From Chloroflexota bacterium (GTDB lineage Bacteria > Chloroflexota > Anaerolineae > Anaerolineales > VGOW01), in contig JACPWC010000013.1 in assembly GCA_016197225.1 (NCBI GenBank), forward strand, positions 1-64,000: a stretch of DNA of 64,000 bases, in the 5' to 3' direction. Made by a program: the position numbers and the translations under genes. This document shows positions 32,920-64,000 of this stretch, piece by piece. The notes under the pieces were generated by a model. The model was given only the letters and a program-made list of their open reading frames with translations, was not told where the DNA came from and did no database searches. The first letter of the stretch is position 1; every line of letters begins with the position of its first letter.

Positions 32920-33540
32920 GTGAAGGTCAAGATTTGCGGCATCACCACCATCAACGATGCTCTGATGTGCGCTGAAGCCGGGGCCGACTTCATCGGGCTG
33001 AACTTTTATCCGAAAAGCCCGCGCTATCTCTCGCGAGAGAGGGCGCGCCAGATTGCATCGGCTTTACGCGATCTGCCCAAGCCGCCCGTGCTCGTCGGCG
33101 TGTTCGTCAACGAATCGGCGGCGGCGATGAAGGCGGCGCTGGACGAGTGCGGCTTAGACCTGGCCCAGTTGAGCGGCGACGAGTCGGAGGACGTTTTACA
33201 TGCGATGGGCGAGCGCGGGTTCAAAGCAATACGCAACCACCAATTACCAATTACCAATTACCAATTACTTCTCTTCGACGCTCACGCCGCCGGTCATTTC
33301 GGTGGAACGGGGAAAACAGCCGATTGGACACTGGCGGCTCAACTGGCGAAGCAATGCCGGTTATTGCTGGCCGGCGGTCTCACCCCGGACAACGTCGCCC
33401 TGGCAATTGGCCGCGTCCAACCGTGGGGCGTGGACGTGGCCTCAGGCGTCGAGACGGCTCCGGGAGTGAAAGACCGGGCGAAAGTATTTGCATTCATCAA
33501 GGCGGCAAAGGATGTCTCTAATTCTAACTCCTCACTCTAA
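32920..33540 (+). CDS. trpF: Phosphoribosylanthranilate isomerase
   Basis: GTG start at 32920; product 206 residues. [35 protein letters not shown] is the family N-terminus with the catalytic Cys, and [15 protein letters not shown] and [16 protein letters not shown] form the phosphate-binding end. It converts PRA to CdRP. Oddly, residues 107-117 ([11 protein letters not shown]) are encoded by four tandem ACCAATT words that look like an inserted repeat in frame. The last codons overlap the trpB start by 29 bases. Confidence 0.94.
33238..33268 (+). repeat. Heptamer repeat (ACCAATT) inside trpF
   Basis: Four tandem copies of ACCAATT, of the short tandem repeat kind usually found between genes, lie in frame within trpF. 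Confidence 0.8.
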
Positions 33541-34714: not shown

Positions 34715-34764
34715 AGGATTGGAGAATTCTCCAATCCTCCAAATTCTCTAATCTCTTCTCTCCA
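34715..34764 (+). repeat. Word-repeat palindrome (GGATTGGAGAATTC)
   Basis: A perfect 24-base palindrome (34715-34738) is followed by TCTCTAATCTCTTCTCTCC words up to the trpA start. The same word family occurs at 8793 and 30296. Confidence 0.8.
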
Positions 34765-35535
34765 ATGTCTCGCATCGCTGCCGCCTTCACCCCTCGCCCC
34801 GCCCTCATGCCCTACCTCACGCTCGGCTATCCCGATCCCGAAACGTCGCTGGCTTGCGTCCAGGCCACCGCCGAAGCCGGGGCCAACCTCATCGAACTCG
34901 GTCTGCCGTTCAGCGACCCGCTGGCTGACGGCCCGGTGATTCAACATTCGACGCAAGTGGCGCTGGAGAACGGCGTCACCGTCGCCAAATGTTTGCAGAT
35001 GACGACTGAACTGAGGCGGCGCGGCGTGGTCGTTCCGCTTCTGTTAATGGGTTACTACAACCCGATCTTCGCTTACGGCCTGGCCCGGTTCGCCGGTGAC
35101 GCCGCCTCTGCCGGGGCAGACGGCTTCATCGTCCCCGACCTGCCACTGGAGGAAGCAGACGAGCTTGAAGGCGAGTGCCGCAAACACGACCTGTCGCTGA
35201 TCTATATGCTCGCGCCCACTTCGACGCCGGAGCGAATCAAAAAAGTTGCCGAACGCGCCAGCGGCTTTCTCTATCTGGTTTCGGTGACGGGCGTGACGGG
35301 TGAACGGTCGGGCGTGGCCGGAGGACTGAGGGAGTTTGTGGGGCGGGTGAAAGAGGCGGCCAGTGTTCCAGTGGCGGTTGGATTTGGAATCAGCACCCCG
35401 GCCCAGGCCGTCGAAGTCGGCCAATTCGCCGACGGCGTCATCATCGGCTCGGCCATTATCAAAGCCGCCAGCGGCAAAAAGCCGGTAGAAGGCGTAAAGG
35501 AGTTTGTCAGGCACATGCGCAAAGTTTTAGGCTAG
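34765..35535 (+). CDS. trpA: Tryptophan synthase alpha chain
   Basis: The product has 256 residues. ANLIELGLPFSDPLADGPVIQ contains both catalytic acids (Glu and Asp) in the usual spacing, and LLMGYYNPIFAYG, FIVPDLPLEEADEL, YLVSVTGVTGER and VGFGISTPAQAVEV follow in order. It cleaves indole-3-glycerol phosphate and channels indole to TrpB. It is the last gene of the operon; I see no clear terminator in the following 150 bases. Confidence 0.97.
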   Translation: MSRIAAAFTPRPALMPYLTLGYPDPETSLACVQATAEAGANLIELGLPFSDPLADGPVIQHSTQVALENGVTVAKCLQMTTELRRRGVVVPLLLMGYYNPIFAYGLARFAGDAASAGADGFIVPDLPLEEADELEGECRKHDLSLIYMLAPTSTPERIKKVAERASGFLYLVSVTGVTGERSGVAGGLREFVGRVKEAASVPVAVGFGISTPAQAVEVGQFADGVIIGSAIIKAASGKKPVEGVKEFVRHMRKVLG

Positions 35536-41006: not shown

Positions 41007-43880
41007 ATGCCTTTTTCTTTCGAGGGATCCAAAGACGAAGTTGCCCGGCTGGTGAAGCACTTTCTCACCAACAAGGCCACGTATATTGCCCCGGCTTATA
41101 AAGAAGCCCACGCCCGGCAGGAGTTTATTGACCCGCTGTTTATGGCCCTCAACTGGGACGTGCCGAACCGCCAGCGCGCCGCGCCCGACTACCGCGAAGT
41201 CATTGTCGAAGATTCGCTGGCTATGGAAGGCTACGCTTCGCGGAAAGCGCCCGACTACGCCTTCCGCGTCGGGCGCGAGCGCAAGTTTTTTGTCGAAGCC
41301 AAGAAGCCGGGCGTGGATTTGAAAACCGCCGCCGCGCCTGCTTATCAACTCCGGCGCTACGTCTGGAGCGCCAAACTGCCGCTCTCGATTCTCACCGATT
41401 TTGAAGAGCTGGCCGTCTACGATTGCCGCCTCCGCCCCAATGAAAAAGACAAGCCGGGCGTGGCGCGGGTGAATTACCTGACGTGCGAAGAATACGCCGA
41501 CCGCTGGCAGGAAGTGTGGGACGTATTTTCGCGGGAGGCGGTGTGGGGCGGTTCGTTTGACCAGTTTGCGCAAGCAGGCAAAAACAAACGCGGCACGTCC
41601 GAAGTGGACGCCGAGTTTCTGAAAGAGATTGAAGGCTGGCGGGAGGCGCTGGCCAAAAACATCGCCCTGCGCAACCCGCGCCTGACCATTGACGAACTGA
41701 ACGACGCGGTGCAACGCCTCATTGACCGCCTCATCTTTTTGCGGATGGCCGAAGACCGAGGCGTTGAAGACTACGGCCAACTGCAACGTCTGGCCGAGGG
41801 CGAAGGCATTTATGCCGGATTGCTGGCGCTCTCGCGCAAGGCGGACGCCAAATACAACTCCGGGCTGTTCGACTTTTCAAAAGGCGGCGACACCGTCACC
41901 CCCCGTCTCGCCGTTGACGACAAAGCCCTGCGCCCCATTCTGGCCGACCTGTATTACCCGCAATCGCCGTATGAGTTCAGCGTCCTGCCCGCCGAAATTT
42001 TGGGCAACGTTTACGAGCAGTTTCTTGGAAAAGTGATCCGCCTCACCGCTTCACATCAGGCCAAAGTGGAAGAGAAGCCGGAAGTGAAGAAGGCGGGCGG
42101 GGTCTATTACACGCCGGCTTACATCGTGGAGTACATCGTCAAAAACACGGTGGGCAAGCAGATTGAAGGCCAAAGCCCCAAACAACTCAAAGGCTTCCGG
42201 GTGCTGGATATGGCCTGTGGTTCAGGCTCTTTTCTGCTTGGCGCGTATCAGTATCTTTTGGACTATTACCAACACTGGTACACCGGGCATCAGCCCGAAA
42301 AGCACCCCGGCGCGGTGCGCCCACACGGCGAAGCGTGGCGGCTGACCACTGCCGAGAAGAAGCGAATTCTGGTCGAGCATATTTTTGGGGTGGACATTGA
42401 CCGGCAGGCGGTGGAGGTGACCAAGCTGAGTCTTCTGCTCAAAGTGCTGGAAGGCGAGAGCGATGAAACCCTGGGCAAGCAACTGGCGCTCTTGCAGGAA
42501 CGCGCCCTGCCCAACCTTGACCGCAACATCAAATGCGGCAACAGCTTGATTGGCCCGGATTATTTTAGCGGGCAACTGCTGAAGGATGACGACGAACTGC
42601 GCCGGGTGAATCCGTTTGATTGGGCGGCGGAATTTCCCGATGCGATGAAGGCGGGCGGGTTTGATTGTGTGATTGGGAATCCGCCGTATGTATTGATTGA
42701 TGATGCGATTGGCAAAGACCACTTGCGACAGAAGTACGTGTTATCTTCTGGCAAGCCTGATTTGTACAGATATTTCGTTGAATGCTCACTCGGTTTGAGC
42801 AAACGTGGCGGAAGATTTGGATTCATTATTCCCAACACAATACTCACGATTCCGGCGGGCAGGGATTTGCGTAAGTATTTGTTGACTGAAGGTGGGTTAA
42901 ATCTAATTGTGAACTTTTGGGGCCAAGTTTTCAACCGGGTTTCGGTGAATAGCATCATTCTCTTTACTGAAAAGGGTAAGTCCCATGATGCTATAGAAAT
43001 AATCGAAGACAAAAGCAATTTGCCAAATCATGGCACACTCGCACTTGCTCAACAACAGAGCAGGCTGGTTACAACAGCATCCTGGCTCGCTAACGACGAG
43101 TTCCAGATTCAATTGTCGTCAACTGCCAACGTGGATCTGCTCATTAGAAAAATAAAGGCGGCTTCAGTTGAATTGGCTTCAGTTGCCAAATACACATTGG
43201 GGATGCAGGTTTATCACAACTCAATGCACACAAAGCAACAAATTGAAGAGCGTGTTTACCATGCGCCAACAAAAAAGAATCGGTCGTTTTGGCCCGAATC
43301 CGGTGGGCGGAACATCGGCCGGTATTTCTTTCGTGACACCTTCAAAGAATATGTGTCCTATGGTGAGTGGTGCTACAACAAGCCAGATTGGGAATTTTGT
43401 TCTCAGCCCCGAATACTGATACGCGAAATTCCTAGCGGCAAGGGCCTGGTATGTGCTTTTACCGATACCGTCCACGTATCCAACAAGGCGGTCATAATTA
43501 TCATCCCTGCTCAATTGTCTGCAACATATTTGCTCGGCATATTGAACTCAAGGCTTATTGGCTTCTACGTGAGTGCTACTGGTGAGAAGGGCGCACAACG
43601 TCTATTCCCTCGCATATCACTTACTACTGCAAGAAGACTCCCCATCCGCCCCATCAACTTCTCCGACCCCGCCGACAAAGCCCGGCACGACCAAATGGTA
43701 ATGCTGGTGGAGCAAATGCTGGACTTGCACAAGCGCAAGGCTCAAGCCAAAGACGCCGTCGGGCAGGAGCGCCTGCAGAGGCTCATCGATTCCGCCGACA
43801 AGCAAATTGACGCGCTGGTTTATGAGTTGTACGAATTGACGGCGGAGGAGATTGCGGTGGTGGAAGGGGCTAATAAATAA
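41007..43880 (+). CDS. Type IIG-like restriction-modification enzyme (Eco57I-type methylase domain)
   Basis: The product has 957 residues in one chain. The N-terminal nuclease-like domain has PDYAFRVGRERKFFVEAKKPG, a D...ExK pattern of the PD-(D/E)xK fold near residues 75-98. The central gamma-class N6-adenine methyltransferase has VYYTPAYIVEYIV, motif I LDMACGSGSFLLGAYQ (about 398-413) and motif IV FDCVIGNPPYV (about 552). The C-terminal half, about 43200 onward, is the target-recognition domain. It methylates and cleaves DNA at an unknown site. The stretch from roughly 42690 to 43640 is visibly richer in A and T than the flanks, as if the recognition domain came from elsewhere. Confidence 0.9.
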   Translation: MPFSFEGSKDEVARLVKHFLTNKATYIAPAYKEAHARQEFIDPLFMALNWDVPNRQRAAPDYREVIVEDSLAMEGYASRKAPDYAFRVGRERKFFVEAKKPGVDLKTAAAPAYQLRRYVWSAKLPLSILTDFEELAVYDCRLRPNEKDKPGVARVNYLTCEEYADRWQEVWDVFSREAVWGGSFDQFAQAGKNKRGTSEVDAEFLKEIEGWREALAKNIALRNPRLTIDELNDAVQRLIDRLIFLRMAEDRGVEDYGQLQRLAEGEGIYAGLLALSRKADAKYNSGLFDFSKGGDTVTPRLAVDDKALRPILADLYYPQSPYEFSVLPAEILGNVYEQFLGKVIRLTASHQAKVEEKPEVKKAGGVYYTPAYIVEYIVKNTVGKQIEGQSPKQLKGFRVLDMACGSGSFLLGAYQYLLDYYQHWYTGHQPEKHPGAVRPHGEAWRLTTAEKKRILVEHIFGVDIDRQAVEVTKLSLLLKVLEGESDETLGKQLALLQERALPNLDRNIKCGNSLIGPDYFSGQLLKDDDELRRVNPFDWAAEFPDAMKAGGFDCVIGNPPYVLIDDAIGKDHLRQKYVLSSGKPDLYRYFVECSLGLSKRGGRFGFIIPNTILTIPAGRDLRKYLLTEGGLNLIVNFWGQVFNRVSVNSIILFTEKGKSHDAIEIIEDKSNLPNHGTLALAQQQSRLVTTASWLANDEFQIQLSSTANVDLLIRKIKAASVELASVAKYTLGMQVYHNSMHTKQQIEERVYHAPTKKNRSFWPESGGRNIGRYFFRDTFKEYVSYGEWCYNKPDWEFCSQPRILIREIPSGKGLVCAFTDTVHVSNKAVIIIIPAQLSATYLLGILNSRLIGFYVSATGEKGAQRLFPRISLTTARRLPIRPINFSDPADKARHDQMVMLVEQMLDLHKRKAQAKDAVGQERLQRLIDSADKQIDALVYELYELTAEEIAVVEGANK

Positions 43881-48831: not shown

Positions 48832-50025
48832 ATGAAGACAAACTACGACACCATCGTCATCGGCTGCGGCGGCATCGGTAGCGCCGCCCTCTACTGGCTC
48901 TCGCGCCGGGCGGGCCAGGACGTGCTGAGCCTGGAGCAGTTCGAGATCGGCCACACCAAAGGCGGCTCGCAGGATCACTCGCGCATCATCCGCCTGACTT
49001 ACGACTCCGACGAGTACACCCGTCTCACACCGCACAGCTACACCGCCTGGGCAACCGTCGAGGACGAATCGGGGCAGAAGATCGTCCACAAAACCGGCGG
49101 CCTGACGATGGCGATCAAGGACGGCCCGCACCAGCACCACATTCACAACTACGCCAGGTCCATGACTCACTGCGACATTCCCTTCGAGCGGTTGAACGCC
49201 GACGAAGTGATGAAGCGTTACCCGCAGTGGACGTTTGATGAAGAGGTGGATGCGCTGTATCAGGCCGACATGGGGCTGGCCGACGCCATTAAGGGCAACG
49301 GCTCACACATCGCCCTGGCCCGCCGCCGCGGGGCGACGATCATTGATCGTTGCCCGGTTACGGCCATCCGCCCCGTAAAAGACGGCGTGGAAGTAGACAC
49401 TGTAAAAGGGACGTTTTCAAGTCGGCGGCTGATCCTCACCGCCGGCGGCTGGACCGACAAGTTGTTGAAGAGCATCGGCCTCAGCTATCGCATCATCGTC
49501 ACTCAGGAGCAAGTCACTTACTACGCCACGCCCAACGTCCGCGAGTTTTCCATTGGCCGCTTTCCGACCTTTATATGGGAAGGCGAGATTCCGGCCTACG
49601 GATTTCCGGTGTACGGCGAAGTGGCGACCAAGCTCGGCATTGACTGCGCCGGGCCGGTGGTGGATGCCGACACCCGCGACTACATTCCAAGCGAGGCGCT
49701 GGAGCACATTTCGGAGTCGTGGCTCAAAAAGTATTGCCCCGGTTTCCTCGGCCCCATTCTTGTGACCAAAACCTGCCAGTACGACATGCCTCGCGACCGC
49801 AACTTCATTCTGGACGCAGTGCCGGAGCATCCGCAGATTTCCGTCTTTGTCGGCGCGGGCCATGCCTACAAGTTCGCCTCACTCGTCGGCAAAATCTTGA
49901 GCGAACTGGCTCTTGACGGGCAAACGCCTCACGACCTCTCGGCTTTCAAAGTCACCCGCCCTGCGATCACCGATCCCGATTACGCAGTTTCATTCCAGCA
50001 CCAGAGCGATTGGGGCGCAATGTAA
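48832..50025 (+). CDS. Monomeric sarcosine / N-methyl-amino-acid oxidase family flavoenzyme
   Basis: The product has 397 residues. The FAD dinucleotide motif is IGCGGIGSAALYWLSRR near residue 10, followed by QDHSRIIRLTYDSDEY, the family substrate-side loop. FVGAGHAYKFASLVGKILSELAL near the end is the typical FAD-contacting C-terminal segment, although GAGHAYKF replaces the common GFSGHGFK. Relatives oxidise N-methyl groups of sarcosine, N-methyltryptophan or related amines to formaldehyde and H2O2. It opens the methylated-compound region; the next gene is a larger demethylating oxidoreductase. Confidence 0.88.
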   Translation: MKTNYDTIVIGCGGIGSAALYWLSRRAGQDVLSLEQFEIGHTKGGSQDHSRIIRLTYDSDEYTRLTPHSYTAWATVEDESGQKIVHKTGGLTMAIKDGPHQHHIHNYARSMTHCDIPFERLNADEVMKRYPQWTFDEEVDALYQADMGLADAIKGNGSHIALARRRGATIIDRCPVTAIRPVKDGVEVDTVKGTFSSRRLILTAGGWTDKLLKSIGLSYRIIVTQEQVTYYATPNVREFSIGRFPTFIWEGEIPAYGFPVYGEVATKLGIDCAGPVVDADTRDYIPSEALEHISESWLKKYCPGFLGPILVTKTCQYDMPRDRNFILDAVPEHPQISVFVGAGHAYKFASLVGKILSELALDGQTPHDLSAFKVTRPAITDPDYAVSFQHQSDWGAM

Positions 50026-50103: not shown

Positions 50104-50119
50104 ATATAAGGAGATGGTT

Positions 50120-52591
50120 ATGTCTAAAAAATATCGCGTCGTCGTCATCGGCTCCGGCATTGTCGGGGCCAGCGCCGTTTGGCATTTTGCCAAAGCCGGC
50201 TGGAAAGACATTCTGCTGATTGACAAGGGCGAGCTGTGGGAAAACGACGGCTCGACCTCGCACGCGCCCGGCGGCGTGGTCGCCTTGAGCCATTCCAAAC
50301 TGCTCACTCAGATGGCCGTCTACGGGGCCGACTTAATGGCCTCGCTCAAACCCTGGAGCGAAGACCGGATGACGTACAACGGCGTGGGCGGCCTGGACGT
50401 GGCCACGAGTGAACGGCGCTGGAACGACCTCAAACGCCTGCATGGCGAGTCAAAGTCTTACGGCGTTGAGGCGCATTTGCTCTCGCCCGACGAAGTAAAA
50501 ATCAAATCGCCTCTCGTCAACCCCGAAGAAATCTTCGGCGGCATCTTTATTCCCAAAGGCGCGATTGTGGCCGGGGCGCACGTCTCGGCGGCGCTGGTGC
50601 GTGACGCAGGCGCGATGAGCAACGTGGACGCTTACGGAAATACCGCCGTCACCGATTTTGAAGTCAAGGATGGCCGCATCGTTGCCCTGAGCACGAGCAA
50701 CCCCGAACTGCCCCGCATCGAATGTGAGTCGGCCCTGATCTGCGCCAACATCTGGTCGCCGGCCCTGTGCGAAAAACTCGGCATCCAGATTCCGTTGGTG
50801 GCCTTCGAGCATCAATACGTCATCACCACACCCATGCCCGAACTGGCTCAATATGCCGATCATCGCAAAGAAGACGAAGTCCATCACGTCGGCTTCCGCG
50901 ACGTGGATCACACCATGTACTGCCGCTTCCACTGGGACAGCATCGGCGTGGGCAGTTATTGGCACCGCCCGCACATGGTCTACTCGCGTGACGTGAAGAA
51001 AAGCGCCATGCACCCTTTCACGCCCGAAGACTTTGCCGGGCCGTGGGAACACTTCCAGAAACTCGCCCCAGCCCTGAAAGGCATCAATAGCTTTATCAAA
51101 TCCTTCAACGGCATGTTTGCCTTCTCAGTGGACGGCATGCCCATCATCGGCGAGTCGCACGTCAAGGGCCTGTGGGTCGCCACCGGCTCGTGGCTCACCC
51201 ACGCGCCGGGCGTGGCCAAGTGCGCCGTCGAATGGATGACGAGCGGCGAGACCGAGTGGGACATGCGCCAAGTCCACCTGCACCGCTTCCAGACTCACGT
51301 GACCACCAGGAACTTCATGGATCGCATCAGCCTCAAGAACTATCGTGAGATTTACGAGATCGTCCACCCGCGCCAACCGCTCAGCGAACCGCGCAACGTT
51401 CGCCTCACCCCGTTCTACCCGCGACACAAAGACCTCAAAGCCAGCTTCACCGCCTTTGCCGGGATCGAAGTGCCGAACTGGAATGAAGAGAACACGCGCC
51501 TGCTGGAAAAGTACGAGGACAAGATTCCGGCCCGCTCCGGTTGGGCCGCCGAATACTGGTCACCCGTCGCCGGGGCCGAGCACCTGGCCACCCGCGAGAG
51601 CGCCGGCCTCTTCGACCTCACCGGCCTGGCCCTCATCGAAGTGAGCGGCCCCGGCGCGCTCAAGTTCGTCAACTATCTTTGCAGTAACGACATGGACAAG
51701 CCGGTCGGGCAAGTGATGTACACGCTCTGGCTGACGAAGAATGGTGGTGTCCGCCGTGACCTGGCCGTGGCCCGGCTGGCTGAAGACAAATTCTGGATGA
51801 TGGTTGGCGACGGCACGCGCCCGCAGGATTTGGTCTGGGTGCGGAGCCACGCCCCGACCAACGGCTCGGTCGTCATCACCGATGTCTCCGACGGCTACAC
51901 CGCCCTCGGTCTGTGGGGACCGAACGCCCGGAACATCCTGAGCAAAGTCACCCAGGCCGATCTTTCAAACGACGGCTTCCCCTTCTACTCCTGCCAGTGG
52001 ATCGAAGTCGGCCCGGCCTGGGTGCTGGCCGTTCGCATTTCATACGCGGGCGAACTCGGCTGGGAACTGCACATCCCATTCGATCAGGACTTGCAGGTTT
52101 GGGATGCGATCTGGGAAGCGGGCCGCGAGTTTGATCTGATCTCCACCGGCATGACGGCTTTCGACACCTTGCGACTCGAAAAGGGCTACCGTCTCTGGGG
52201 TGGCGACGTTACCACCGAGTACAACGCTTACGAAGCCGGACTCGGCTGGACGGTGAAGCTGGACAAGCAGGATGACTTTCTGGGCAAGGCGGCGAGCAAG
52301 ACGATCAAAGAGAAGGGTCCTAAGAAGAAGCTGTGTTGCCTGACGCTCGACAACCCGCGCGGCGCGGCCTTTGGCTACGAGCCGATCTTCTCGAACGGCG
52401 CCTGTGTCGGCCACGTGACCAGCGCCAACTATGGCTACAGCGTGAGCAAGTATATTTTGTACGGCTACCTGCCCAAAGAGTACGCGACGGTCGGCGCGAA
52501 GCTGGAGATCGAATACTTCGGCGAACGCCATCCGGTCACCGTCGCTCCCGACCCGCTCTTTGATCCAAAGGGCGAAAGAATGAAAGCGTAG
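50120..52591 (+). CDS. Dimethylglycine/sarcosine dehydrogenase-like FAD protein with GcvT domain
   Basis: The start at 50120 follows AAGGAG at good spacing; product 823 residues. The first half is an FAD oxidoreductase: VVIGSGIVGASAVWHFAKAG and NDGSTSHAPGGVVALSHS, where the His is in the position that carries covalent FAD in dimethylglycine dehydrogenase. The second half (about 430-820) is a GcvT/aminomethyltransferase fold (RSGWAAEYWSPVAGAEHLATRESAGLFDLTG, ISYAGELGWELHIPFDQ) that binds tetrahydrofolate and captures formaldehyde as methylene-THF. Substrate may be dimethylglycine, sarcosine or another N-methyl amine. Confidence 0.9.
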   Translation: MSKKYRVVVIGSGIVGASAVWHFAKAGWKDILLIDKGELWENDGSTSHAPGGVVALSHSKLLTQMAVYGADLMASLKPWSEDRMTYNGVGGLDVATSERRWNDLKRLHGESKSYGVEAHLLSPDEVKIKSPLVNPEEIFGGIFIPKGAIVAGAHVSAALVRDAGAMSNVDAYGNTAVTDFEVKDGRIVALSTSNPELPRIECESALICANIWSPALCEKLGIQIPLVAFEHQYVITTPMPELAQYADHRKEDEVHHVGFRDVDHTMYCRFHWDSIGVGSYWHRPHMVYSRDVKKSAMHPFTPEDFAGPWEHFQKLAPALKGINSFIKSFNGMFAFSVDGMPIIGESHVKGLWVATGSWLTHAPGVAKCAVEWMTSGETEWDMRQVHLHRFQTHVTTRNFMDRISLKNYREIYEIVHPRQPLSEPRNVRLTPFYPRHKDLKASFTAFAGIEVPNWNEENTRLLEKYEDKIPARSGWAAEYWSPVAGAEHLATRESAGLFDLTGLALIEVSGPGALKFVNYLCSNDMDKPVGQVMYTLWLTKNGGVRRDLAVARLAEDKFWMMVGDGTRPQDLVWVRSHAPTNGSVVITDVSDGYTALGLWGPNARNILSKVTQADLSNDGFPFYSCQWIEVGPAWVLAVRISYAGELGWELHIPFDQDLQVWDAIWEAGREFDLISTGMTAFDTLRLEKGYRLWGGDVTTEYNAYEAGLGWTVKLDKQDDFLGKAASKTIKEKGPKKKLCCLTLDNPRGAAFGYEPIFSNGACVGHVTSANYGYSVSKYILYGYLPKEYATVGAKLEIEYFGERHPVTVAPDPLFDPKGERMKA

Positions 52592-52599
52592 ATCAATTC

Positions 52600-52673
52600 A
52601 CCACGAAGGCGCGAAGCCACAAAGATACACCAAGAATTCTTTGTGGAGCTTCGCGCCTTTGTGTCTTTGTGGT
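52600..52673 (+). repeat. Word-repeat hairpin (CACGAAGGCGCGAAG / CTTCGCGCCTTTGTG)
   Basis: Long imperfect arms: GAAGGCGCGAAGCCACAAAG on the left and CTTTGTGGAGCTTCGCGCC on the right. It reaches to within two bases of the mttB1 start codon. Confidence 0.85.
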
Positions 52674-52675
52674 TA

Positions 52676-54193
52676 ATGAGCCGTCGCCGAAGAAACGAAG
52701 CTGTAGACGCGACCACCGCGCCGTTTCGCCAACTGCAAACGCGCTGGCCGCCGCTGGAGGTGCTCTCGCCTGAACACCTGGAGCGTATTCATGACGCTTC
52801 GATGCGGATTCTGGAGAACACGGGTGTTGAATTGCTTGACGCCGAAGCGCTGGATATTTTTGCCAAAGCAGGCGCGAGCGTTGAGGTCGAGACCAAGCGG
52901 GTGAAGATAGATCGCGGCCTGTTGCTGGAGACGATTGCCACCGCCCCACCCTCTTTCACTCTCCACGCTCGCAACCCGCAGAAGTCGGTCGTCATCGGCG
53001 GGAACCACATTGTCTTCTCGCCAGTCGGCGGACAGGCCTACAGCACCAACTTTGACCGAGGACGCCGCCCCGGAACCCTGGCCGATCTCGAAGAACTGGT
53101 CAAGCTCATCCACAGCTTCAACGTTCTGCATCATGGCTCGGACACGCCGGTGGAGCCGACCGACCTGCCCGCCGAGACTCGCCACCTCGACACGCTTTAT
53201 ACGATGCTCCGCCTGACCGACAAGACGGTGATGGGGCCGGCCCGGGGCCGGGTGACGACGACGGATGCCATTGAGATGATGGCCCTGGTCTTCGGCAGGC
53301 GCGAGGCCCTGCTGGAGCGCCCGGCCCTGATCACCATCATCAACGTCAACTCACCGCTGAGGTACGACGACTGGATGCTGGGCGGGCTGATCACCTTCGC
53401 CCGCGCCGGACAGGTGAACGTCATCACGCCCTTCATCGCCGCCGGAGCGATGGGGCCGATCACTCTGGCGGGCGCAATTGCCCAACAGAACGCCGAGGCG
53501 CTGGCCGGTGCCATGCTGACGCAGTTGGTGCGGCCAGGAGCGCCCGTTGTCTACGGCAACTTCACCGTGGACGCTCACATGAGAAGCGGAAGCCCCAGCT
53601 TCGGCACGCCGGAGGGCGCGTGGGCGACGCTGGCCGCCGGACAGTTGGCCCGGCGCTACAAACTGCCCTACCGGAGCAACGGCTCGCTCTCATCCTCCAA
53701 CGCCCCCGACGCCCAGGCGGCTTATGAGACAATGATGTCGCTGTGGCCGGCGATTCTGGCCCATACCAATTTTGTCTATCAGGGCGCGGGCTGGGTGGAG
53801 GGCGGGCTGACGACGAGCTACGAGAAGTTCATCATTGACGTTGAGGCGCTGGCGATGATGGAAGCCTTGCTGACCGGCTACGACGTGAACGACGAGGCCC
53901 TGGCCCTGCCGTTCATTGATCAGGTCGGGCCGGGCGGCCACCACTTTGACACCGAGCACACCCTGTCGCGTTACAGCACCGCCTTCTACAATCCACTGAT
54001 CAGCAGCCGCCAGCAATACGGCAACTGGGTGGAGGCCGGAAGCCTGGACGCGGCGGGGAGGGCGCATTTGAGGTGGAAAGAGGTGTTGAAGAACTATGAG
54101 GAGCCGAAGCTTGACGAGACGATTGACGAGGCCTTGCGCGACTTCATGACGCGTCGCAAGCAAGAGCAGGCGGAGAAGGGGTTGACGGCGTGA
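52676..54193 (+). CDS. MttB family (trimethylamine/betaine) methyltransferase, paralogue 1, without pyrrolysine
   Basis: From the ATG at 52676 the product has 505 residues. The TIM-barrel MttB pattern is clear: PLEVLSPEHLERIHDASMRILENTGV at the start, HHGSDTPVEPTDLPAETRH, TIINVNSPLRYDDWMLGGLITFARAGQVNVITPFI, and GPGGHHFDTEHTLSRY near the end. The frame reads through without any amber codon, so it belongs to the non-pyrrolysine group, whose studied members methylate corrinoid proteins from glycine betaine, carnitine and similar quaternary amines. It is the most divergent of the three paralogues here. No corrinoid protein gene is nearby. Confidence 0.9.
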   Translation: MSRRRRNEAVDATTAPFRQLQTRWPPLEVLSPEHLERIHDASMRILENTGVELLDAEALDIFAKAGASVEVETKRVKIDRGLLLETIATAPPSFTLHARNPQKSVVIGGNHIVFSPVGGQAYSTNFDRGRRPGTLADLEELVKLIHSFNVLHHGSDTPVEPTDLPAETRHLDTLYTMLRLTDKTVMGPARGRVTTTDAIEMMALVFGRREALLERPALITIINVNSPLRYDDWMLGGLITFARAGQVNVITPFIAAGAMGPITLAGAIAQQNAEALAGAMLTQLVRPGAPVVYGNFTVDAHMRSGSPSFGTPEGAWATLAAGQLARRYKLPYRSNGSLSSSNAPDAQAAYETMMSLWPAILAHTNFVYQGAGWVEGGLTTSYEKFIIDVEALAMMEALLTGYDVNDEALALPFIDQVGPGGHHFDTEHTLSRYSTAFYNPLISSRQQYGNWVEAGSLDAAGRAHLRWKEVLKNYEEPKLDETIDEALRDFMTRRKQEQAEKGLTA

Positions 54194-56719: not shown

Positions 56720-58255
56720 ATGGGAACTACACGTTCTGAGAGGCGGGCCGCCCGGCGGCAACAGCGGTCGGAAATTCCGCTGGCTAAACTTCCCTTCCAG
56801 GAATTACGCAACCCTTTCCCGCCGCTGGAAATTGTGCCGCCTGAAGGCATCGAAAAGATTCACAACGCCTCGTTGGACTTGCTCGAAAATACCGGCATCT
56901 GCGTGATGGACGAGGAAGCCCTGAGCCTGTTTGAGCACGCGGGCGCAAGAGTCGATCACCAGAGCCAAATGGTGTGGCTGGATCGCGGCTGGCTGATGGA
57001 GATCGTCGCCAGAGCGCCGGCGGAGTTCACCTGGCGCGCCCGCAACCTGCAACGCAACGTCCGCATCGGCGGGAACAACATTGCCCTGGCCGCTAACGGC
57101 GGCATGGCTTACGCCTCGAATCTCGACGTGGGGCGGCGGCGCGGCACTTTGCAAGACTACGAGGCCTTCCTCAAGCTCGGCCAGATGTGCAACGTCATTC
57201 ATATCAACGCCGGTGAACTGGTCGCCATTCAAGACATTCCGTCCTCGGCCCGTCACCTGCGCCGCCTGCTGGCCAACTTTCTTTACACCGACAAAGCCAT
57301 TCTCGAAGCGGCGCACGGGCGCGTCATCCCGCTGGACTGTTTTGAAATGGCCAAGATGGTCTTCGGCACGCTCGACGGCGACCCCGTGTTTGGCGGCGTC
57401 ATCAACGTCAGCAGTCCCTTGCGCTACGACAATCGCATGGCCGGCGGCCTCATCAGCTACGCCCGGGCCGGGCAAGTTGCCATTGTCACCCCGTTCATCT
57501 CAGCCGGAGCGATGGGGCCGATCACGGTCGCCGGCGCGCTCACCCAGCAAAACGCGGAGGCGTTGACGGGCATCGCCCTGACCCAGATCGTCAAACCCGG
57601 CGTGCCTGTCATCTACGGCAACTTCACCACGCCCACTGACATGAAGAGCGGCGCGCCCGCCTTTGGCACGCCCGAAGCCGCCTGGGCCACGCTGGCGAGC
57701 GCCCAACTCGCCCGCCGCTACAAGTTGCCGTTTCGCGGCAGTGGCAGTCTCAACAACTCCAAAGTGCCGGACGCGCAAGCAACGTGGGAAAGCCACTGGT
57801 CGCTGTGGCCGGCGCTGTTCGCCCACACCAACTTTGTCCTGCACTCGGTTGGCTGGCTCGAAGGCGGCCTCACTGCCTCATACGAAAAGTGGATCATTGA
57901 CGCCGAGACGCTGGCGATGTTCTTCCACTTCTTCAAAGGCTTCGAGATCAGCGACGAGACGCTGGCTTTGGACATGATCGCCGAAGTGGGGCCGGGCGGC
58001 CACCACTTTGGCACGCCGCACACCCAGGCCCGCTTCGCCACTGAGTTCTATCAGTCCACCCTTGCCGACCGGCTTGGCTACGAAACCTGGCACGCGGCGG
58101 GCGAGTGGGACGCCACCAAACGCGCCCACGCCATCTGGAAAGAAATGCTGGCTCACTACGAACCGCCGCCCCTCGACCCGGTTCTCCAGCAGGCCCTCAC
58201 CGAATTTGTTGCCCGGCGCGAGAAGGAACTGGAAGGAAAAAATCTCTACGATTGA
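56720..58255 (+). CDS. MttB family methyltransferase, paralogue 2, without pyrrolysine
   Basis: The product has 511 residues with no internal amber codon. It starts with a basic segment (SERRAARRQQRSE) and then PLEIVPPEGIEKIHNASLDLLENTGI. Shared family parts are GNNIALAANGGMAYASNLDVGRRRGTLQDYEAFLKLGQMCNVIH, INVSSPLRYDNRMAGGLISYARAGQVAIVTPFISAGAMGP, GSGSLNNSKVPDAQA and EVGPGGHHFGTPHTQARFATEFYQSTLADRLGY. It is much closer to paralogue 3 than to paralogue 1. Expected reaction: methyl transfer from a quaternary amine to a corrinoid protein. Confidence 0.9.
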   Translation: MGTTRSERRAARRQQRSEIPLAKLPFQELRNPFPPLEIVPPEGIEKIHNASLDLLENTGICVMDEEALSLFEHAGARVDHQSQMVWLDRGWLMEIVARAPAEFTWRARNLQRNVRIGGNNIALAANGGMAYASNLDVGRRRGTLQDYEAFLKLGQMCNVIHINAGELVAIQDIPSSARHLRRLLANFLYTDKAILEAAHGRVIPLDCFEMAKMVFGTLDGDPVFGGVINVSSPLRYDNRMAGGLISYARAGQVAIVTPFISAGAMGPITVAGALTQQNAEALTGIALTQIVKPGVPVIYGNFTTPTDMKSGAPAFGTPEAAWATLASAQLARRYKLPFRGSGSLNNSKVPDAQATWESHWSLWPALFAHTNFVLHSVGWLEGGLTASYEKWIIDAETLAMFFHFFKGFEISDETLALDMIAEVGPGGHHFGTPHTQARFATEFYQSTLADRLGYETWHAAGEWDATKRAHAIWKEMLAHYEPPPLDPVLQQALTEFVARREKELEGKNLYD

Positions 58256-58350: not shown

Positions 58351-59547
58351 ATGGCTTACAACTTCGATCAACTCATCAACCGCCGCCCGACCAATAGCAA
58401 CAAGTGGAATTTTTACCCTGAAGACATTTTGCCGATGTGGGTTGCCGATATGGATTTTGTGTCGCCCCATCCCGTCATCAAAGCCTTGCGCCAAAAAGTT
58501 GAGCACGGCATCTTCGGCTACGAACTGCCGTCCGCTGAACTTATCGAAACCGTGTGTGACCGCATGGCCCGGCTCTACGGTTGGGCCGTCACTCCGCAAC
58601 AAGTCATCGCCCTGCCCGGCCTGGTCACCGGCGTCAACGTCGCTTGTCGGGCCGTCGGCGGGCCGGGCGACGGCGTGCTCATCCAGACACCGGTCTACCA
58701 TCCCTTCCTCAGCGCGCCCAAAAACAATGGCCGCCTCAGGCAGGATGCGCCGCTCACCTATGTCTCCGACGGCGATCATGCTTTTCATTACGAGATTGAC
58801 TACGACAGCTTTGAAACTGCCATTCAGGATAACACCCGCCTGTTCCTGTTTTGCAACCCGCACAACCCTACCGGCCAGGTTTATACGCCCGAACAATTGA
58901 CCCGGCTGGCCGAAATCTGTCTGCGCCATAATCTCGTCATCTGCTCCGACGAAATTCACGGCGAGCTTGTGCTGGGCAAGTCCACGCACACCCCGCTGGC
59001 AACACTCTCCCCCGAAATCGCCGACCGCACCATCACCCTCATCGCCCCCAGCAAGACGTTCAACATTGCCGGCCTCGGTTGTAGTTTTGCCATCGTCACC
59101 AACCCGGAACTGCGCCAGCAAGTGCAAATCGCCGCCGAGGGCATCGTGCCGCTCGTCAACGCCCTGGGCCTGGCCGCCGGGCTGGCCGCTTTCCGCGACG
59201 ACCCGGAGGTGAATGACTGGCTGACGGCCCTGAAGCAATACCTGACGGCCAACCGCGATGTCTGGGTTGAGACTATCGCCCGCGAACTGCCCATGCTCAA
59301 GACCGCCGCGCCCGACGCCACCTATCTGGCCTGGCTCGATTGCCGGGGCGCGAACCTTGATCTTGATCCGTACGAATTCTTTTTGCAGAAGGCCAGTATC
59401 GGGTTCAGCGACGGCGCGATCTTTGGCGCAAACGGCCAGGGCTTCGTGCGCGTGAATTTTGGTTGCCCGCGCCCGCGATTGATGCAGGCATTGGAACAGA
59501 TGAAAGCCGCACTGACAAACGACGGACGGACGACGAAGGACGGGTGA
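58351..59547 (+). CDS. MalY/PatB-type PLP-dependent C-S lyase or aminotransferase
   Basis: The product has 398 residues. LPMWVADMDFVSPHPVIKAL is the MalY/PatB N-terminus, NPHNPTGQVYTPEQL binds the ring and ICSDEIHGELVLGKSTHTPLA is the family marker. APSKTFNIAGLGCSFAIV holds the PLP lysine near residue 235. Members are cystathionine beta-lyases and aminotransferases. In this neighbourhood it could release methanethiol, ammonia and pyruvate from sulphur amino acids. The last eight codons lie in a repeat element. Confidence 0.9.
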   Translation: MAYNFDQLINRRPTNSNKWNFYPEDILPMWVADMDFVSPHPVIKALRQKVEHGIFGYELPSAELIETVCDRMARLYGWAVTPQQVIALPGLVTGVNVACRAVGGPGDGVLIQTPVYHPFLSAPKNNGRLRQDAPLTYVSDGDHAFHYEIDYDSFETAIQDNTRLFLFCNPHNPTGQVYTPEQLTRLAEICLRHNLVICSDEIHGELVLGKSTHTPLATLSPEIADRTITLIAPSKTFNIAGLGCSFAIVTNPELRQQVQIAAEGIVPLVNALGLAAGLAAFRDDPEVNDWLTALKQYLTANRDVWVETIARELPMLKTAAPDATYLAWLDCRGANLDLDPYEFFLQKASIGFSDGAIFGANGQGFVRVNFGCPRPRLMQALEQMKAALTNDGRTTKDG

Positions 59548-59596: not shown

Positions 59597-60823
59597 ATGG
59601 CCCGCAAAGACAAACGCATCTTCGGACAACACAACGCGCTGTTTGAACCCAATCTCGACTTCAGCCGCCTGCGCCACGAGCGTCTGGCAAAAGTCCAGCG
59701 CGAGATGGCCAAACGCGACATCGGCGCGCTGATCCTGACCGACATCATGAACATTCGCTATGCCACCGGCGTCAGCGTCATGCCGCTGTGGACGGCGGTC
59801 AATCTGGCACATTACGTGCTGGTTCCGGTCAACGGCGACCCCATCATTTACGAATACAACCAGTCGCGATTCATCGCCCGGCAATTCTGGTCGGACGTGC
59901 GCCCGGCGCATTACTGGCAACACCGCTTCGCCGATCAATATGCGCCCGACCTTTCCAACAGATGGGCTTCGGAGTTCAAAGACGTGCTTCAGGAAAAAGG
60001 GCTGGCCGGTTCCAAAGTGGGCGTAGACAATCTGGACTACTACGGTTTCACCGCCTTGCAAAACCAGGGCTTTCATCTAACGGACGCCGACGAGCCAATG
60101 GAAGCCGCCCGCGTCGTTAAATTGCCAGACGAGATCGAGCTTCTGCGTCAGTCCGCCGCTGTGTGCGAATCCGCTCTTTACGACGTGGAACAGGCCATCC
60201 GCCCCGGCATCAGCGAGAATGAACTGCTGGCGATCTTCTGGCATGGCATGTTGGCCCTGGGCGGCGAACACTGCTTCACCCGCCTCATCGCTTCCGGCCA
60301 CAAGACCAATCCCTGGTTCCACGAAGCCGGGAGCAAACTGGTGCGCCCCGGCGACCTGGTGGGCATTGACACCGACATGATCGGCCCGCACGGCTACGTG
60401 TGCGACATCTCGCGCACCTTCCTTTGTGGCGATGTCGCCACCGCAACCCAAAAAGAGGCTTACAAAGTCGCCTACGATTTCATTCAAGGCACAATTGAGT
60501 TGTGCCAGCCCGGCGTCGCCTTTTCCGATTTTGCCAGGCGCATCCCGACCGTCCCGGAAGCTTATAAAGCGCAACGCTACTCGGTCATCCTGCACGGCAT
60601 CGGCACCGACGACGAGCCGCCTTTCATTCCGTTCATTGATGATCTGAGGGGCGAAACCTTTGTGGACGGCGAGTTTCAAGAGAACACCGTCTTGAGCGTT
60701 GAGTTCTACGCCGGAAAAGTGGGCGAGCAGGACGGCGTAAAATTAGAGGAAGAAATCTGGCTTACCAAAGACGGGCCGGTGGTGATTTCGTTGTATCCTT
60801 ATGAGGAGAAGTTGTTGAGGTGA
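59597..60823 (+). CDS. M24-fold metalloenzyme resembling DMSP lyase DddP
   Basis: The product has 408 residues: an N-terminal creatinase-like domain (about 1-170, with NIRYATGVSVMPLW) and a C-terminal pita-bread domain. Metal ligands are Asp258, Asp260 and Asp270 (IDTDMIGPHGYVCDISRTF), His333 (ILHGIGTDDEPP), Glu369 (VEFYAG) and Glu384 (KLEEEIWLT). Ordinary Xaa-Pro peptidases have only the Asp pair eleven apart; D-x-D then Asp ten later, with equal spacing of the other ligands, is the DddP pattern. ASGHKTNPWFHEAG also resembles DddP. It may cleave DMSP or a related onium compound; another M24 function cannot be excluded. Confidence 0.82.
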   Translation: MARKDKRIFGQHNALFEPNLDFSRLRHERLAKVQREMAKRDIGALILTDIMNIRYATGVSVMPLWTAVNLAHYVLVPVNGDPIIYEYNQSRFIARQFWSDVRPAHYWQHRFADQYAPDLSNRWASEFKDVLQEKGLAGSKVGVDNLDYYGFTALQNQGFHLTDADEPMEAARVVKLPDEIELLRQSAAVCESALYDVEQAIRPGISENELLAIFWHGMLALGGEHCFTRLIASGHKTNPWFHEAGSKLVRPGDLVGIDTDMIGPHGYVCDISRTFLCGDVATATQKEAYKVAYDFIQGTIELCQPGVAFSDFARRIPTVPEAYKAQRYSVILHGIGTDDEPPFIPFIDDLRGETFVDGEFQENTVLSVEFYAGKVGEQDGVKLEEEIWLTKDGPVVISLYPYEEKLLR

Positions 60824-60824: not shown

Positions 60825-62372
60825 ATGACTCTCGATTCTCAACGCTCCGAACGCCGCGCCGCCCGCCGCCAGCAACGCTCGGCCCTGCCCCTGCTCAAAC
60901 TCCCTTTTCGCCAACTGCGCAACCCTCTGCCGCCGCTGGAGATCATTTCGCCTGAACAAATCGAAAAACTGCATCAAGCCTCGATGCACATTCTCGAAAA
61001 CGTCGGCCTGGACTTTTTGGACAAAGAGACGCTGGACGTTTGGGAGAAGGCCGGGGCAAAGGTGGATGCTTCTGCACGTCACGTTTGGCTGGATCGCGGG
61101 CTGGTGATGGAGGCCGTCGGCAAAGCGCCCGCGTCGTTCACCTGGCGCTCGCGCAACCCGGAAAAGAACGTCTTTGTCGGCGAGAACGCGATCACCTTTG
61201 CGCCTAACGGCGGCGTGGCCTACTCATCCAACTTCGAGACGGGACGGCGGCGCGGCACAATGGCTGATTACGAAAACTTCCTCAAGCTGGGGCAGATGTG
61301 CAACATTTTGCACTACGCTGGCGAGCAACTGGTCGCGCCGCAGGAGGTGCCGTCATCCATTCGCCACCTCAGACGGCTGTTCGGCGCGCTGACCCTCACC
61401 GACAAGGCCGTGATGGAAGCGGCGCACGGGCGCGAGATCACGGCTGACGCATTAAAAATGGTGAGGCTGGTATTCGGTGATTTAATCAGTGACGGCGGCC
61501 CCGTTATCGGCGGCATCATCAACGTCAACAGCCCGCTTCGTTACGATGATCGCATGTTAGGCGGCCTCATCACTTACGCCCGCACCGGGCAAGTCACCAT
61601 CATCACCCCCTTCATCCTGGCCGGGGCGATGAGTCCGATCAGCATGGCCTCAGCGCTGGCCCAACAAAACGCGGAAGCCCTGGCGGGCGTCGCCTTGACG
61701 CAGTTGATCAGGCCGGGCGCGCCCGTCATCTATGGCGGCTTCACCACGAATGTGGACATGAAGAGCGGAAGCCCGGCCTTTGGCACGCCGGAGGGCGCGT
61801 GGGCGATGTCGGTCGGGGCGCAGTTGGCGCGGCGCTACAAGTTGCCGTATCGCGGCAGTGGCAGTCTCAACAATTCCAAAACGCCGGACGCACAGGCGGC
61901 TTATGAGACAATGTGGACGATCTGGCCGGCGATTCTGTCGCACACCAACTTCGTCATGCACTCGGTCGGCTGGCTGGAGGGCGGACTGACCGCCTCTTAC
62001 GAGAAGTTCATTATAGACGCCGAAAACCTGGCGATGTTCTATCACTTCCTCAACGGCTTTGAGATCAGCGACGAGACGCTGGCCCTGGACATGATCGCCG
62101 AAGTGGAGCCGGGCGGCCACCACTTCGGGACTCCACACACCCAGGCCCGCTTCGCCACCGAGTTCTATCAGTCCACCCTCGCCGACCGGCTGGGCTACGA
62201 AACGTGGCATGCGGCGGGCGCATGGGACACGGCCAAGCGAGCACACGCCGTTTGGAAAGAGATGCTGGCGCAGTACGAGCCACCGTCAATGGATGCCGGC
62301 GTGAAAGAAGCGTTGAGTGAGTATGTAGCGAAAAGGGAGAAGGAGTTGGAGGGGAGGAGTCTTTATGATTGA
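60825..62372 (+). CDS. MttB family methyltransferase, paralogue 3, without pyrrolysine
   Basis: The product has 515 residues without an amber codon and begins one base after the preceding stop. It shares long identical stretches with paralogue 2: GSGSLNNSK, HTNFVMHSVGWLEGGLTASYEK, GFEISDETLALDMIAEV and FGTPHTQARFATEFYQSTL. Paralogue 3 has EVEPGGHHFG where the other two have GPGGHH. Its stop overlaps the start of the core-MetE gene by eight bases, which links methyl removal from the substrate to a zinc methyltransferase. Confidence 0.9.
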   Translation: MTLDSQRSERRAARRQQRSALPLLKLPFRQLRNPLPPLEIISPEQIEKLHQASMHILENVGLDFLDKETLDVWEKAGAKVDASARHVWLDRGLVMEAVGKAPASFTWRSRNPEKNVFVGENAITFAPNGGVAYSSNFETGRRRGTMADYENFLKLGQMCNILHYAGEQLVAPQEVPSSIRHLRRLFGALTLTDKAVMEAAHGREITADALKMVRLVFGDLISDGGPVIGGIINVNSPLRYDDRMLGGLITYARTGQVTIITPFILAGAMSPISMASALAQQNAEALAGVALTQLIRPGAPVIYGGFTTNVDMKSGSPAFGTPEGAWAMSVGAQLARRYKLPYRGSGSLNNSKTPDAQAAYETMWTIWPAILSHTNFVMHSVGWLEGGLTASYEKFIIDAENLAMFYHFLNGFEISDETLALDMIAEVEPGGHHFGTPHTQARFATEFYQSTLADRLGYETWHAAGAWDTAKRAHAVWKEMLAQYEPPSMDAGVKEALSEYVAKREKELEGRSLYD

Positions 62373-63477
62373 AGCCCACACCGATGTCGTCGGCAGTTTG
62401 CTTCGCCCGCCGGAATTGTTGCAGGCGCGAGAGGATGTGGCGGCGGGCCGAATTTCGCAAGCCGAGTTCAAGCGCGTCGAAGATTGGGCGGTTGACGAAG
62501 CTATCGCGCTTCAAGAAGAGGCGGGGCTGGAGGTGATCACGGACGGCGAACAGAGGCGGCTGTCCTTTCAGAGCCAACTCCTGGAGTCGGTGGAGGGCGT
62601 TGGCGAGTGGGACATTGACGCTTTCTTGTGGGGCGACTGGAAGGGCATTGAGGGCGTGGTCGAAGACAAGAACACGCAACGCCCCAAAGAGCTGGGTGTG
62701 GTGAGCAAACTACGCCGCAAGCGCCACTTGTCTTCTGAAGAGTTTGTGTACCTGCGACGGCGCACGACGCGCATTCCCAAAATTACGCTTACCAGCCCCA
62801 GCCTGTACGCCAATTTGTGGTCGCCAGAAAAGTCGAAAGCCGCCTACCCGACCCTCGACAGCTTCCTGGCTGACGTGGTGGATATTATGCGCGACGAAGT
62901 CGCCGAGTTGGTCCGGCTCGGCGCGACCTACATTCAGATTGACGCGCCGCACTACCCGCTGTTGATTGACCCGAAGACTCGCGCCTTCTACGAAAGCCAG
63001 GGCTGGACATTGGAGCGATGGCTGGCGCGCGGCATTGAGATGGACAACGCCCTCATCGGCGATTTCCGCGAAGTGACGTTCGCCTTTCACCTGTGCCGGG
63101 GCAATCAGCACAGCCGCTGGCTGGTCGAGGGCGGCTACGATCTGATCGCCAAGCCGATCTTTCAAAACATTCGCGCCCAACGGTTGATGCTTGAGTACGA
63201 CGACGCGCGCTCCGGCACATTCGACCCGCTCCAAGAAGTGCCCGACGACAAGACGGTAGTGCTGGGGCTGGTGACAACCAAAAGCCCGCGCCAGGAAACG
63301 GTTGAAGAGTTGGCGGCGCGCATCAAAGACGCGGCGCGCTTCGTGCCGCTGGAACGGCTCGGCCTCAGCCCGCAGTGCGGCTTCGCCACCTCCATCGGCG
63401 GCAACGCCCTCACCCTTGAAGATGAGAAGCGCAAGCTGAAGACAATTTGCGAGACGGCGAAAGTAGTATGGGGATAG
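62365..63477 (+). CDS. Core-MetE type (cobalamin-independent methionine synthase C-terminal) zinc methyltransferase
   Basis: The 370-residue product equals only the catalytic C-terminal barrel of MetE and lacks the N-terminal folate-binding half. Zinc ligands are visible: His242 and Cys244 in FHLCRGNQHS, Glu277 in LMLEYDDARSG and Cys338 in SPQCGFATSIGGN. RSLLRPPELL-like HTDVVGSLLRPPELLQA starts the chain. Short core-MetE proteins can use methyl-corrinoid donors instead of methyl-THF. Coupled to an MttB gene, this enzyme may pass the methyl group from a corrinoid protein to homocysteine or another thiol. Confidence 0.87.
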   Translation: MIEAHTDVVGSLLRPPELLQAREDVAAGRISQAEFKRVEDWAVDEAIALQEEAGLEVITDGEQRRLSFQSQLLESVEGVGEWDIDAFLWGDWKGIEGVVEDKNTQRPKELGVVSKLRRKRHLSSEEFVYLRRRTTRIPKITLTSPSLYANLWSPEKSKAAYPTLDSFLADVVDIMRDEVAELVRLGATYIQIDAPHYPLLIDPKTRAFYESQGWTLERWLARGIEMDNALIGDFREVTFAFHLCRGNQHSRWLVEGGYDLIAKPIFQNIRAQRLMLEYDDARSGTFDPLQEVPDDKTVVLGLVTTKSPRQETVEELAARIKDAARFVPLERLGLSPQCGFATSIGGNALTLEDEKRKLKTICETAKVVWG

Positions 63478-63481
63478 AGAA

Positions 63482-63541
63482 AACCGCAAAGACGCAAAGG
63501 GCGCAAAGATTTTTCTTCGCGTTCTTCGTGCCTTTGCGGTT
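63482..63541 (+). repeat. Word-repeat hairpin (AACCGCAAAG / CTTTGCGGTT)
   Basis: Perfect ten-base ends (63482-63491, 63532-63541) enclose the direct words ACGCAAAGG, GCGCAAAG and the inverse TTCGCGTTCTTCGTGC. Same family as 22222 and 32015. Confidence 0.85.
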
Positions 63542-63557
63542 CAATTGGGAGGCTACT

Positions 63558-64000
63558 ATGGTTCTCTGGCTGACCGAAAAAGATGTTCGTTCATTGCTCA
63601 CGATGGAAATGGCGCTGGAAGCGGTCGAAGAATCGTTTCACGGGCTGGCCGAGGGCACGGCGACCAACATGCCGCGCCGCCGGATCAGTCACGAGCGCAA
63701 CACCTTCCACCTCATGTTCAGCGCCGTCGGCTCGCGCAATGTCATCGGCGTCAAGGCCTACAACACCTACGGCGGGCCGGTGGATTTTTTGATCCCGCTT
63801 TACAGCACTGAGACCGGGCGGCTGATTGCCTTGATTGAGGGCGACTGGCTGGGGCGAGTCCGAACCGGGGCCGCCTCCGGGGTGGCAAGCAAATACCTGG
63901 CCCGGCCCGGCTCGAAGACGCTGAGTCTCTTTGGCACTGGCAGTCAGGCCCAAACGCAAATGCTGGCTGTGTGCGCCGCGCTGGGCACGATCGAGCGCGT
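63558..64000 (+). CDS. Ornithine cyclodeaminase / mu-crystallin family protein, 3' end outside the window
   Basis: GGAGG precedes the ATG at 63558; 147 residues are visible before the edge. LTEKDVRSLLTMEMALEAVEESF is the family N-terminus, GVKAYNTYGGP the substrate-binding Lys region, and LIEGDWLGRVRTGAASGVASKYLARPGSKTLSLFGTGSQA runs into the NAD-binding Rossmann loop. Members include ornithine cyclodeaminase, alanine dehydrogenase and ketimine reductases; the specificity cannot be told from this part. It follows the core-MetE gene after a repeat hairpin. Confidence 0.9.
   Translation, partial: MVLWLTEKDVRSLLTMEMALEAVEESFHGLAEGTATNMPRRRISHERNTFHLMFSAVGSRNVIGVKAYNTYGGPVDFLIPLYSTETGRLIALIEGDWLGRVRTGAASGVASKYLARPGSKTLSLFGTGSQAQTQMLAVCAALGTIER

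Follow-up and report, generated by a model that had tools for sequence, protein, structure and literature searches.

The window analysed here, a stretch of 64,000 nucleotides from a Chloroflexota bacterium (contig JACPWC010000013.1), raises the question of what a protein with the metal signature of the DMSP lyase DddP does among genes of amine demethylation. The main gene studied (59597..60823, + strand, ATG start) encodes a DddP-like M24-fold protein of 408 aa, in which Pfam recognises the Peptidase_M24 and Creatinase_N domains. The original prediction took it for a DMSP lyase or, alternatively, a related lyase on another quaternary compound. DddP residue identity, fold, clade membership and operon context are directly established for this M24 protein. 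We propose, with a probability of about 0.5, that it would be a lyase with an onium carboxylate, though not DMSP, as its substrate. In broader terms, its probable role is to cleave or rearrange some betaine-like molecule, not DMSP.

Active site and predicted fold

All six metal-ligand positions are filled in the alignment to RlDddP (4rzy). Residues D258, D260, D270, H333, E369 and E384 fall exactly in the columns of D295, D297, D307, H371, E406 and E421, which are the published metal ligands of RdDddP (PMC4108388). The offsets of 37, 37, 37, 38, 37 and 37 given in the original prediction are thus correct, and the TNPWFxE stretch to which it drew attention is present. The codons of the ligands cover 60368..60748 on the + strand (D258 at 60368, D260 at 60374, D270 at 60404, H333 at 60593, E369 at 60701 and E384 at 60746; positions computed from the ORF start according to the RlDddP-numbered alignment). 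The likeness to DddP goes beyond these six residues, because W65, Y328 (codon at 60578), D339 (codon at 60611) and F241 align with W95, Y366, D377 and F278 of RlDddP. In DddP, Y366 and D377 are candidate catalytic residues (PMC4108388); a Trp and a Tyr hold the sulfonium, an Asp takes the alpha proton, Asp and Phe stand in for the two histidines of M24 peptidases, and inactivity on Val-Pro has been reported (PMC5395565). Both catalytic histidines of M24 peptidases, the second of which belongs to the HxGxxxHE motif, are likewise absent from the M24 protein, with F241 and D339 in their place. A chance origin of the D-x-D pair (258/260) was ruled out, D at position 260 being found in none of the 39 other M24 homologues.

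The ranking of solved structures is consistent with this picture. By sequence, the closest entries are four DddP chains (E 5e-60 to 4e-52), and the best non-DddP structure is a prolidase (E 5e-15). The AlphaFold2 model, built from an alignment of 24 D-x-D sequences without plasmid-derived rows, has a pLDDT of 87.8, with low confidence (below 50) in the W65 loop at residues 63-67. Its top fold matches are again DddP (TM 0.91, Z 44, 2.1 Å, 397 residues), as compared with Z 33-34 for prolidase, DoeA and creatinase. The predicted structure keeps the M24B peptidase feature of a pita-bread fold with D, D, H, E and E ligands. A plain peptidase was nevertheless ruled out by the missing histidines and by the DddP-first ranking of both fold and sequence.

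Relationship to DddP and the D-x-D clade

The M24 protein is not a DddP by score and clade membership. On the NCBIfam equivalog model for DddP (NF043017, cut-off 600 bits), it scores 257.8 bits, whereas the bona fide plasmid-borne dddP products of Loktanella and Paracoccus yeei reach 800 bits. Its nearest kin score 265.6 bits (Rubrobacter) and 278.9 bits (Obscuribacterales), and the remaining D-x-D proteins tested 317-441 bits. In the IQ-TREE analysis of 51 proteins, which was complemented by an additional tree of 83, the D-x-D proteins and DddP are united in a single group (94/88, not starred), within which the M24 protein, three Rubrobacter-group proteins and the Obscuribacterales protein constitute a clade (100/99). 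DddP lies deep within a separate clade of 26 proteins (100/100), its neighbours being proteins of same-class genomes and actinobacterial proteins (99/96). Under the AU test, which presupposes the model and the groups named beforehand, a forced grouping of the clade of the M24 protein with DddP is rejected (p 3.6e-44), as is a topology that excludes DddP from the group of all the other D-x-D proteins (p 4.4e-6). DddP is therefore nested inside a broad D-x-D clade. The placement in a peptidase or creatinase clade that the original prediction had set against itself was not seen, since the protein groups with DddP in the D-x-D clade, outside the sampled M24 outgroups.

The members of this clade are widely distributed. 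Close-match patterns run against 84,980 species genomes recovered orthologues from two Rubrobacter (one of them Rubrobacter taiwanensis, 63%) and from two MAGs, one actinobacterial (65%) and one of the Obscuribacterales (50%), the Rubrobacter orthologues being 63-66% identical to the M24 protein. Whole-genome searches added further actinobacterial members and, in the same class as the host, proteins nearer to DddP. Plasmid records hold members from Sinorhizobium, Rhizobium, Caballeronia, Paraburkholderia, Pseudomonas, Mesorhizobium and Rhodobacterales (33-39% identical), nearly all of which are labelled 'Xaa-Pro peptidase' where annotation exists. Among 83 homologues, the D-x-D pair is found in 3/3 DddP and in 41 further sequences, and in 0/39 others. 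The original prediction noted its absence from ordinary Xaa-Pro dipeptidases, and the other M24 homologues do lack the pair; its implied specificity for DddP did not hold, since the 41 non-DddP sequences make it the mark of a larger clade. In these 41 sequences H333 and E369 are invariant and Y328 is kept in all but one (40/41), and the position of D339 is occupied by D in 28, E in 7, G in 5 and N in 1. The chemistry may therefore vary among branches, although the M24 protein itself has D. It fits the traits of the clade in its D-T-D, NPW, Y328, H333 and E369 and in its common ancestry. Judged from residues and tree together, it is a member of a widespread branch separate from DddP, with a predicted DddP active site that is complete.

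Several variants were observed in and around the clade. A seven-member actinobacterial subclade (L109-L112, L115, L118, L119) carries Cys for D270, Gly for E384 and Glu for D339, substitutions that probably affect the second metal site or else the reaction itself. Gly occurs at the position of DddP D377, with Y366 kept, in S. meliloti pSymA, Shinella, Caballeronia and an actinobacterium (L043, L069, L040, L114, L125). In the sister group of the D-x-D clade, from the same phylum, D-x-H replaces D-x-D (L005/L129, L006, L009/L132, L016/L138, L130), and one genome (G013) has many D-x-H paralogues. A Rubrobacter-class copy (L108; G314:C2, ~299852-301068) is split over two frames with an in-frame TGA within the match, a possible pseudogene or sequencing error. 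No D-x-D homologue was detected at E 1e-20 on plasmids pRL10, pRL11 and pRL12 of Rhizobium leguminosarum 3841, the strain from which the DMSOP-negative host J391 presumably derives, a result for the plasmids that does not make this host a natural negative control.

These results bear on whether the protein could be a genuine DMSP (or DMSOP) lyase, binding DMSP and releasing DMS and acrylate as DddP does. All residues published as needed for DddP catalysis are found in it, DddP is its closest fold, the C-S lyase PatB adjoins its gene, and an MDR-type oxidoreductase is encoded in the Rubrobacter cluster. We nevertheless regard this reading as quite unlikely in view of the model score, the rejected grouping with DddP and flanking genes that belong to amine demethylation. 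Furthermore, no AcuI acrylyl-CoA reductase scores above the cut-off in the host genome (best 63 of 440 bits), whereas one control genome does. The missing AcuI would still be compatible with DMSP cleavage, because tight linkage between dddP and acuI is missing in Roseobacters as well (PMC3338564) and other routes for acrylate may exist. Other genomes of the same class have far closer DddP relatives, 44-50% identical to RlDddP. The specific call of a DMSP lyase thus finds no support here. The closer relatives were found in three genomes (G518, G655, G590; L097, L098, L099, L102) and keep the DddP catalytic residues, and the two that were scored (G518, G655) reach 513-519 bits against the cut-off of 600. 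Within this class, they are better DMSP lyase candidates than the M24 protein.

Gene neighbourhoods and quaternary amines

The window places the M24 gene in a tight run on the + strand. An MttB paralogue (56720..58255, 70% identical to the copy at 60825) is followed after 95 bp by a PatB/MalY-type C-S lyase (58351..59547, TIGR04350 above cut-off), which ends 49 bp before the M24 gene; the latter is followed after 1 bp by an MttB-superfamily methyltransferase (60825..62372), whose stop is overlapped by 8 bp by a core-MetE-like (Meth_synt_2) methyltransferase (62365..63477). The MttB at 60825 is without an in-frame amber codon and matches the glycine betaine methyltransferase 9yce at E 1.6e-122; the MttB proteins of the window score below the TMA-specific cut-off. 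Further upstream, on the same strand, are a monomeric sarcosine/N-methyltryptophan oxidase-like flavoprotein (48832..50025, NF008425 above cut-off), a dimethylglycine dehydrogenase-like (DMGDH-like) flavoprotein with DAO, FAO_M and GCV_T domains (50114..52591), and another MttB paralogue (52643..54193, 56% identical to the 60825 copy). Three of the six MttB copies of the genome sit in this region. An ornithine cyclodeaminase/mu-crystallin family gene (63447..64000, + strand) runs beyond the window end and is followed by genes for a class V aminotransferase, a BtuFCD-like importer and a cobalamin adenosyltransferase. The importer and the adenosyltransferase (contig C13, ~67660-71200) fit a corrinoid-dependent demethylase, and candidate corrinoid proteins were observed on contigs C69 and C74 of the same genome. 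Homocysteine could come from PatB and the methyl group be taken up by the core-MetE-like protein, which would agree with the coupling reported between betaine demethylation and methionine synthesis (PMC12478193). An Eco57I-like restriction-modification protein of 957 aa is encoded at 41007-43880, between the trp genes (27682-35535) and the methylamine region.

Comparable sets of genes surround the relatives. The Rubrobacter locus comprises a glycine-betaine BCCT transporter (above cut-off), a sarcosine-oxidase-like gene directly upstream of the M24 gene whose product is 50% identical to that of 48832..50025, a GbcA-like Rieske gene on the other side of the M24 gene, a BADH-like ALDH and an MDR. 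In Parasedimentitalea, the M24 gene lies between DMGDH-like and MttB genes, followed by a heterotetrameric sarcosine oxidase; in Terrarubrum, sarcosine oxidase, DMGDH-like, betaine-homocysteine methyltransferase, MttB and mandelate-racemase-family genes precede it. The Sinorhizobium and Shinella loci hold MttB, M24, isochorismatase-family, betaine ABC transporter and mandelate-racemase-family genes, with a DMGDH-like gene upstream. A Rieske gene and a reductase gene stand immediately before the M24 gene in Rhizobium, and a proline racemase and a proline/glycine-betaine transporter come after it. The Rhizobium Rieske protein matches entries 3vca and 4qup, the former of which we take to be linked to Stc2. 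The Caballeronia relative, like that of Rhizobium, is near a gene of the Stc2-like Rieske family, Stc2 being a proline betaine demethylase (PMC7948474). In Loktanella, dddP itself is separated by one divergent LysR gene from a Stc2-like Rieske gene of this same family. On the Loktanella salsilacus plasmid (L060 7857-15013), the bona fide dddP stands by this Rieske gene, a 2Fe-2S reductase and an NADH:flavin oxidoreductase, a gene set that looks like stachydrine demethylation.

The association is also apparent in counts. Within 8 kb, MttB is found near 8/35 D-x-D genes vs 0/27 other M24 genes, a DMGDH-like gene likewise near 8/35 vs 0/27, and a Rieske gene near 11/35 vs 1/27. When near-copies are collapsed to 31 lineages and MttB, DMGDH-like and Stc2/GbcA-like Rieske genes are counted together, 14 of the 31 D-x-D lineages have such a gene within this distance as against 1 of the 27 M24 controls (Fisher p = 2.5e-4), a comparison in which taxon and collection are confounded, because nearly all controls come from the host phylum and many D-x-D loci from proteobacterial plasmids or actinobacterial genomes. 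Independent of this taxon confounding, the non-D-x-D M24 paralogue of the same genome (contig C85) has no such demethylation gene nearby. On five plasmids with a single MttB, this gene lies at most 5.4 kb from the D-x-D M24 gene, a proximity with a chance of 0.3 to 3.8% each, evaluated post hoc and with two of the five sharing synteny. A nearby betaine ABC ATPase was dropped as uninformative, occurring at 13/27 control M24 genes and 12/35 D-x-D genes.

Two other activities can be weighed against these neighbourhoods. The protein could be a hydrolase of a C-N (amide/amidine) bond in a betaine or N-methyl conjugate, similar to creatinase, DoeA or prolidase and feeding the demethylation pathway. 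M24 enzymes besides DddP are hydrolases, and creatinase, whose product is sarcosine, and the ectoine hydrolase DoeA are fold neighbours; a sarcosine-oxidase-like gene is among the partners, and in Sinorhizobium and Shinella the isochorismatase-family hydrolase gene overlaps the M24 gene. We consider such a hydrolase unlikely, given that the two catalytic histidines are replaced as in the Val-Pro-inactive DddP (PMC5395565) and that the score on the DoeA model (TIGR02993) is 72.6 bits vs a cut-off of 613. It can also be imagined that the protein racemises or epimerises an amino-acid betaine with the help of metals, D339 and Y328 serving as bases on opposite faces of the alpha carbon. Its first step would be that of DddP, the removal of an alpha proton from a metal-bound carboxylate, and relatives adjoin proline-racemase- or mandelate-racemase-family genes and proline/glycine-betaine transporters. 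However, none of these genes adjoins the M24 gene of the window, the clusters of the relatives already hold racemase-family enzymes, and we know of no M24 racemase, which makes this activity very improbable.

Proposed function and comparison with known systems

The evidence is best accommodated by the second option of the original prediction, a related lyase on another quaternary compound, as the neighbourhoods of the relatives indicate quaternary-amine catabolism. We infer the reaction of such a lyase from DddP alone, because no characterised non-DddP member of the clade, that is, one with tested activity, was found in the open-access literature. The protein would be a di-metal M24 (pita-bread) enzyme with catalytic residues of the DddP type, not of the peptidase type. 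An onium carboxylate, that is, a betaine or an osmolyte of similar kind, would bind through its carboxylate to the putative metal pair, W65 and Y328 would hold its charged head, and D339 would remove the alpha proton. The outcome would be a beta-elimination, as in DddP, or, less likely, an isomerisation. A quaternary-ammonium carboxylate, or a product of it, is a likelier substrate than DMSP, and the flanking MttB demethylases and DMGDH-like and sarcosine-oxidase-like enzymes are presumed to handle the quaternary-ammonium substrate. Since glycine betaine lacks a beta leaving group, the lyase would need another substrate; beta-alanine betaine, which corresponds to DMSP with nitrogen in place of sulfur, is one example. 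No one substrate fits every D-x-D neighbourhood, some being of the glycine-betaine type, some of the proline/hydroxyproline type and others different again.

At the evolutionary level, it can be tentatively suggested, as a rather doubtful proposition, that the whole D-x-D clade arose for the catabolism of quaternary-ammonium carboxylates and that the DMSP cleavage of DddP is derived or promiscuous. The nesting of DddP in the clade and the Stc2-like Rieske gene near Loktanella dddP are consistent with such an origin, as are the millimolar Km of DddP for DMSP (PMC5395565) and the loose linkage of dddP to acuI. The matter is of wider relevance, since dddP reportedly outnumbers every other bacterial DMSP lyase gene in ocean surveys (PMC10686828, PMC13360808). 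The six-ligand set, so far taken as the mark of DddP, is common to a broad soil, plant-associated and actinobacterial clade often tied to betaine demethylation, and 'dddP' calls based on the motif or on loose homology would therefore be unsafe outside Rhodobacterales. The clade offers a graded series for the evolution of a peptidase fold into a C-S lyase, and it allows one to ask whether a so far unrecognised betaine lyase exists.

Among known systems, DddP (RlDddP 4rzy/4s00/4s01, RdDddP 4b28) resembles the M24 protein most, in its full-length fold, its six ligands and the equivalents of W95, Y366, D377 and F278. The M24 protein differs from it by an identity of ~30%, a separate clade, an operon shared with amine demethylases and a genome without AcuI above cut-off. 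The D-x-D proteins known as the 'Xaa-Pro peptidase family' in Rhizobium, Sinorhizobium pSymA, Shinella, Caballeronia, Pseudomonas, Parasedimentitalea, Terrarubrum and Rubrobacter share the D-x-D and NPW motifs, in many cases together with a quaternary-amine neighbourhood, but the proteobacterial ones are just 34-39% identical and some have G at D339. Xaa-Pro dipeptidase/prolidase (M24B) has the pita-bread fold and five metal ligands in common with the M24 protein, which is distinguished by the loss of both catalytic histidines, the sixth ligand D260 and a Z of 34 for prolidase vs 44 for DddP. DoeA/EutD and creatinase, the latter known for its link to sarcosine oxidase, have the M24 fold and act on osmolytes or N-methyl compounds, whereas the M24 protein combines this fold with DddP-type catalytic residues and remains far below the DoeA cut-off.
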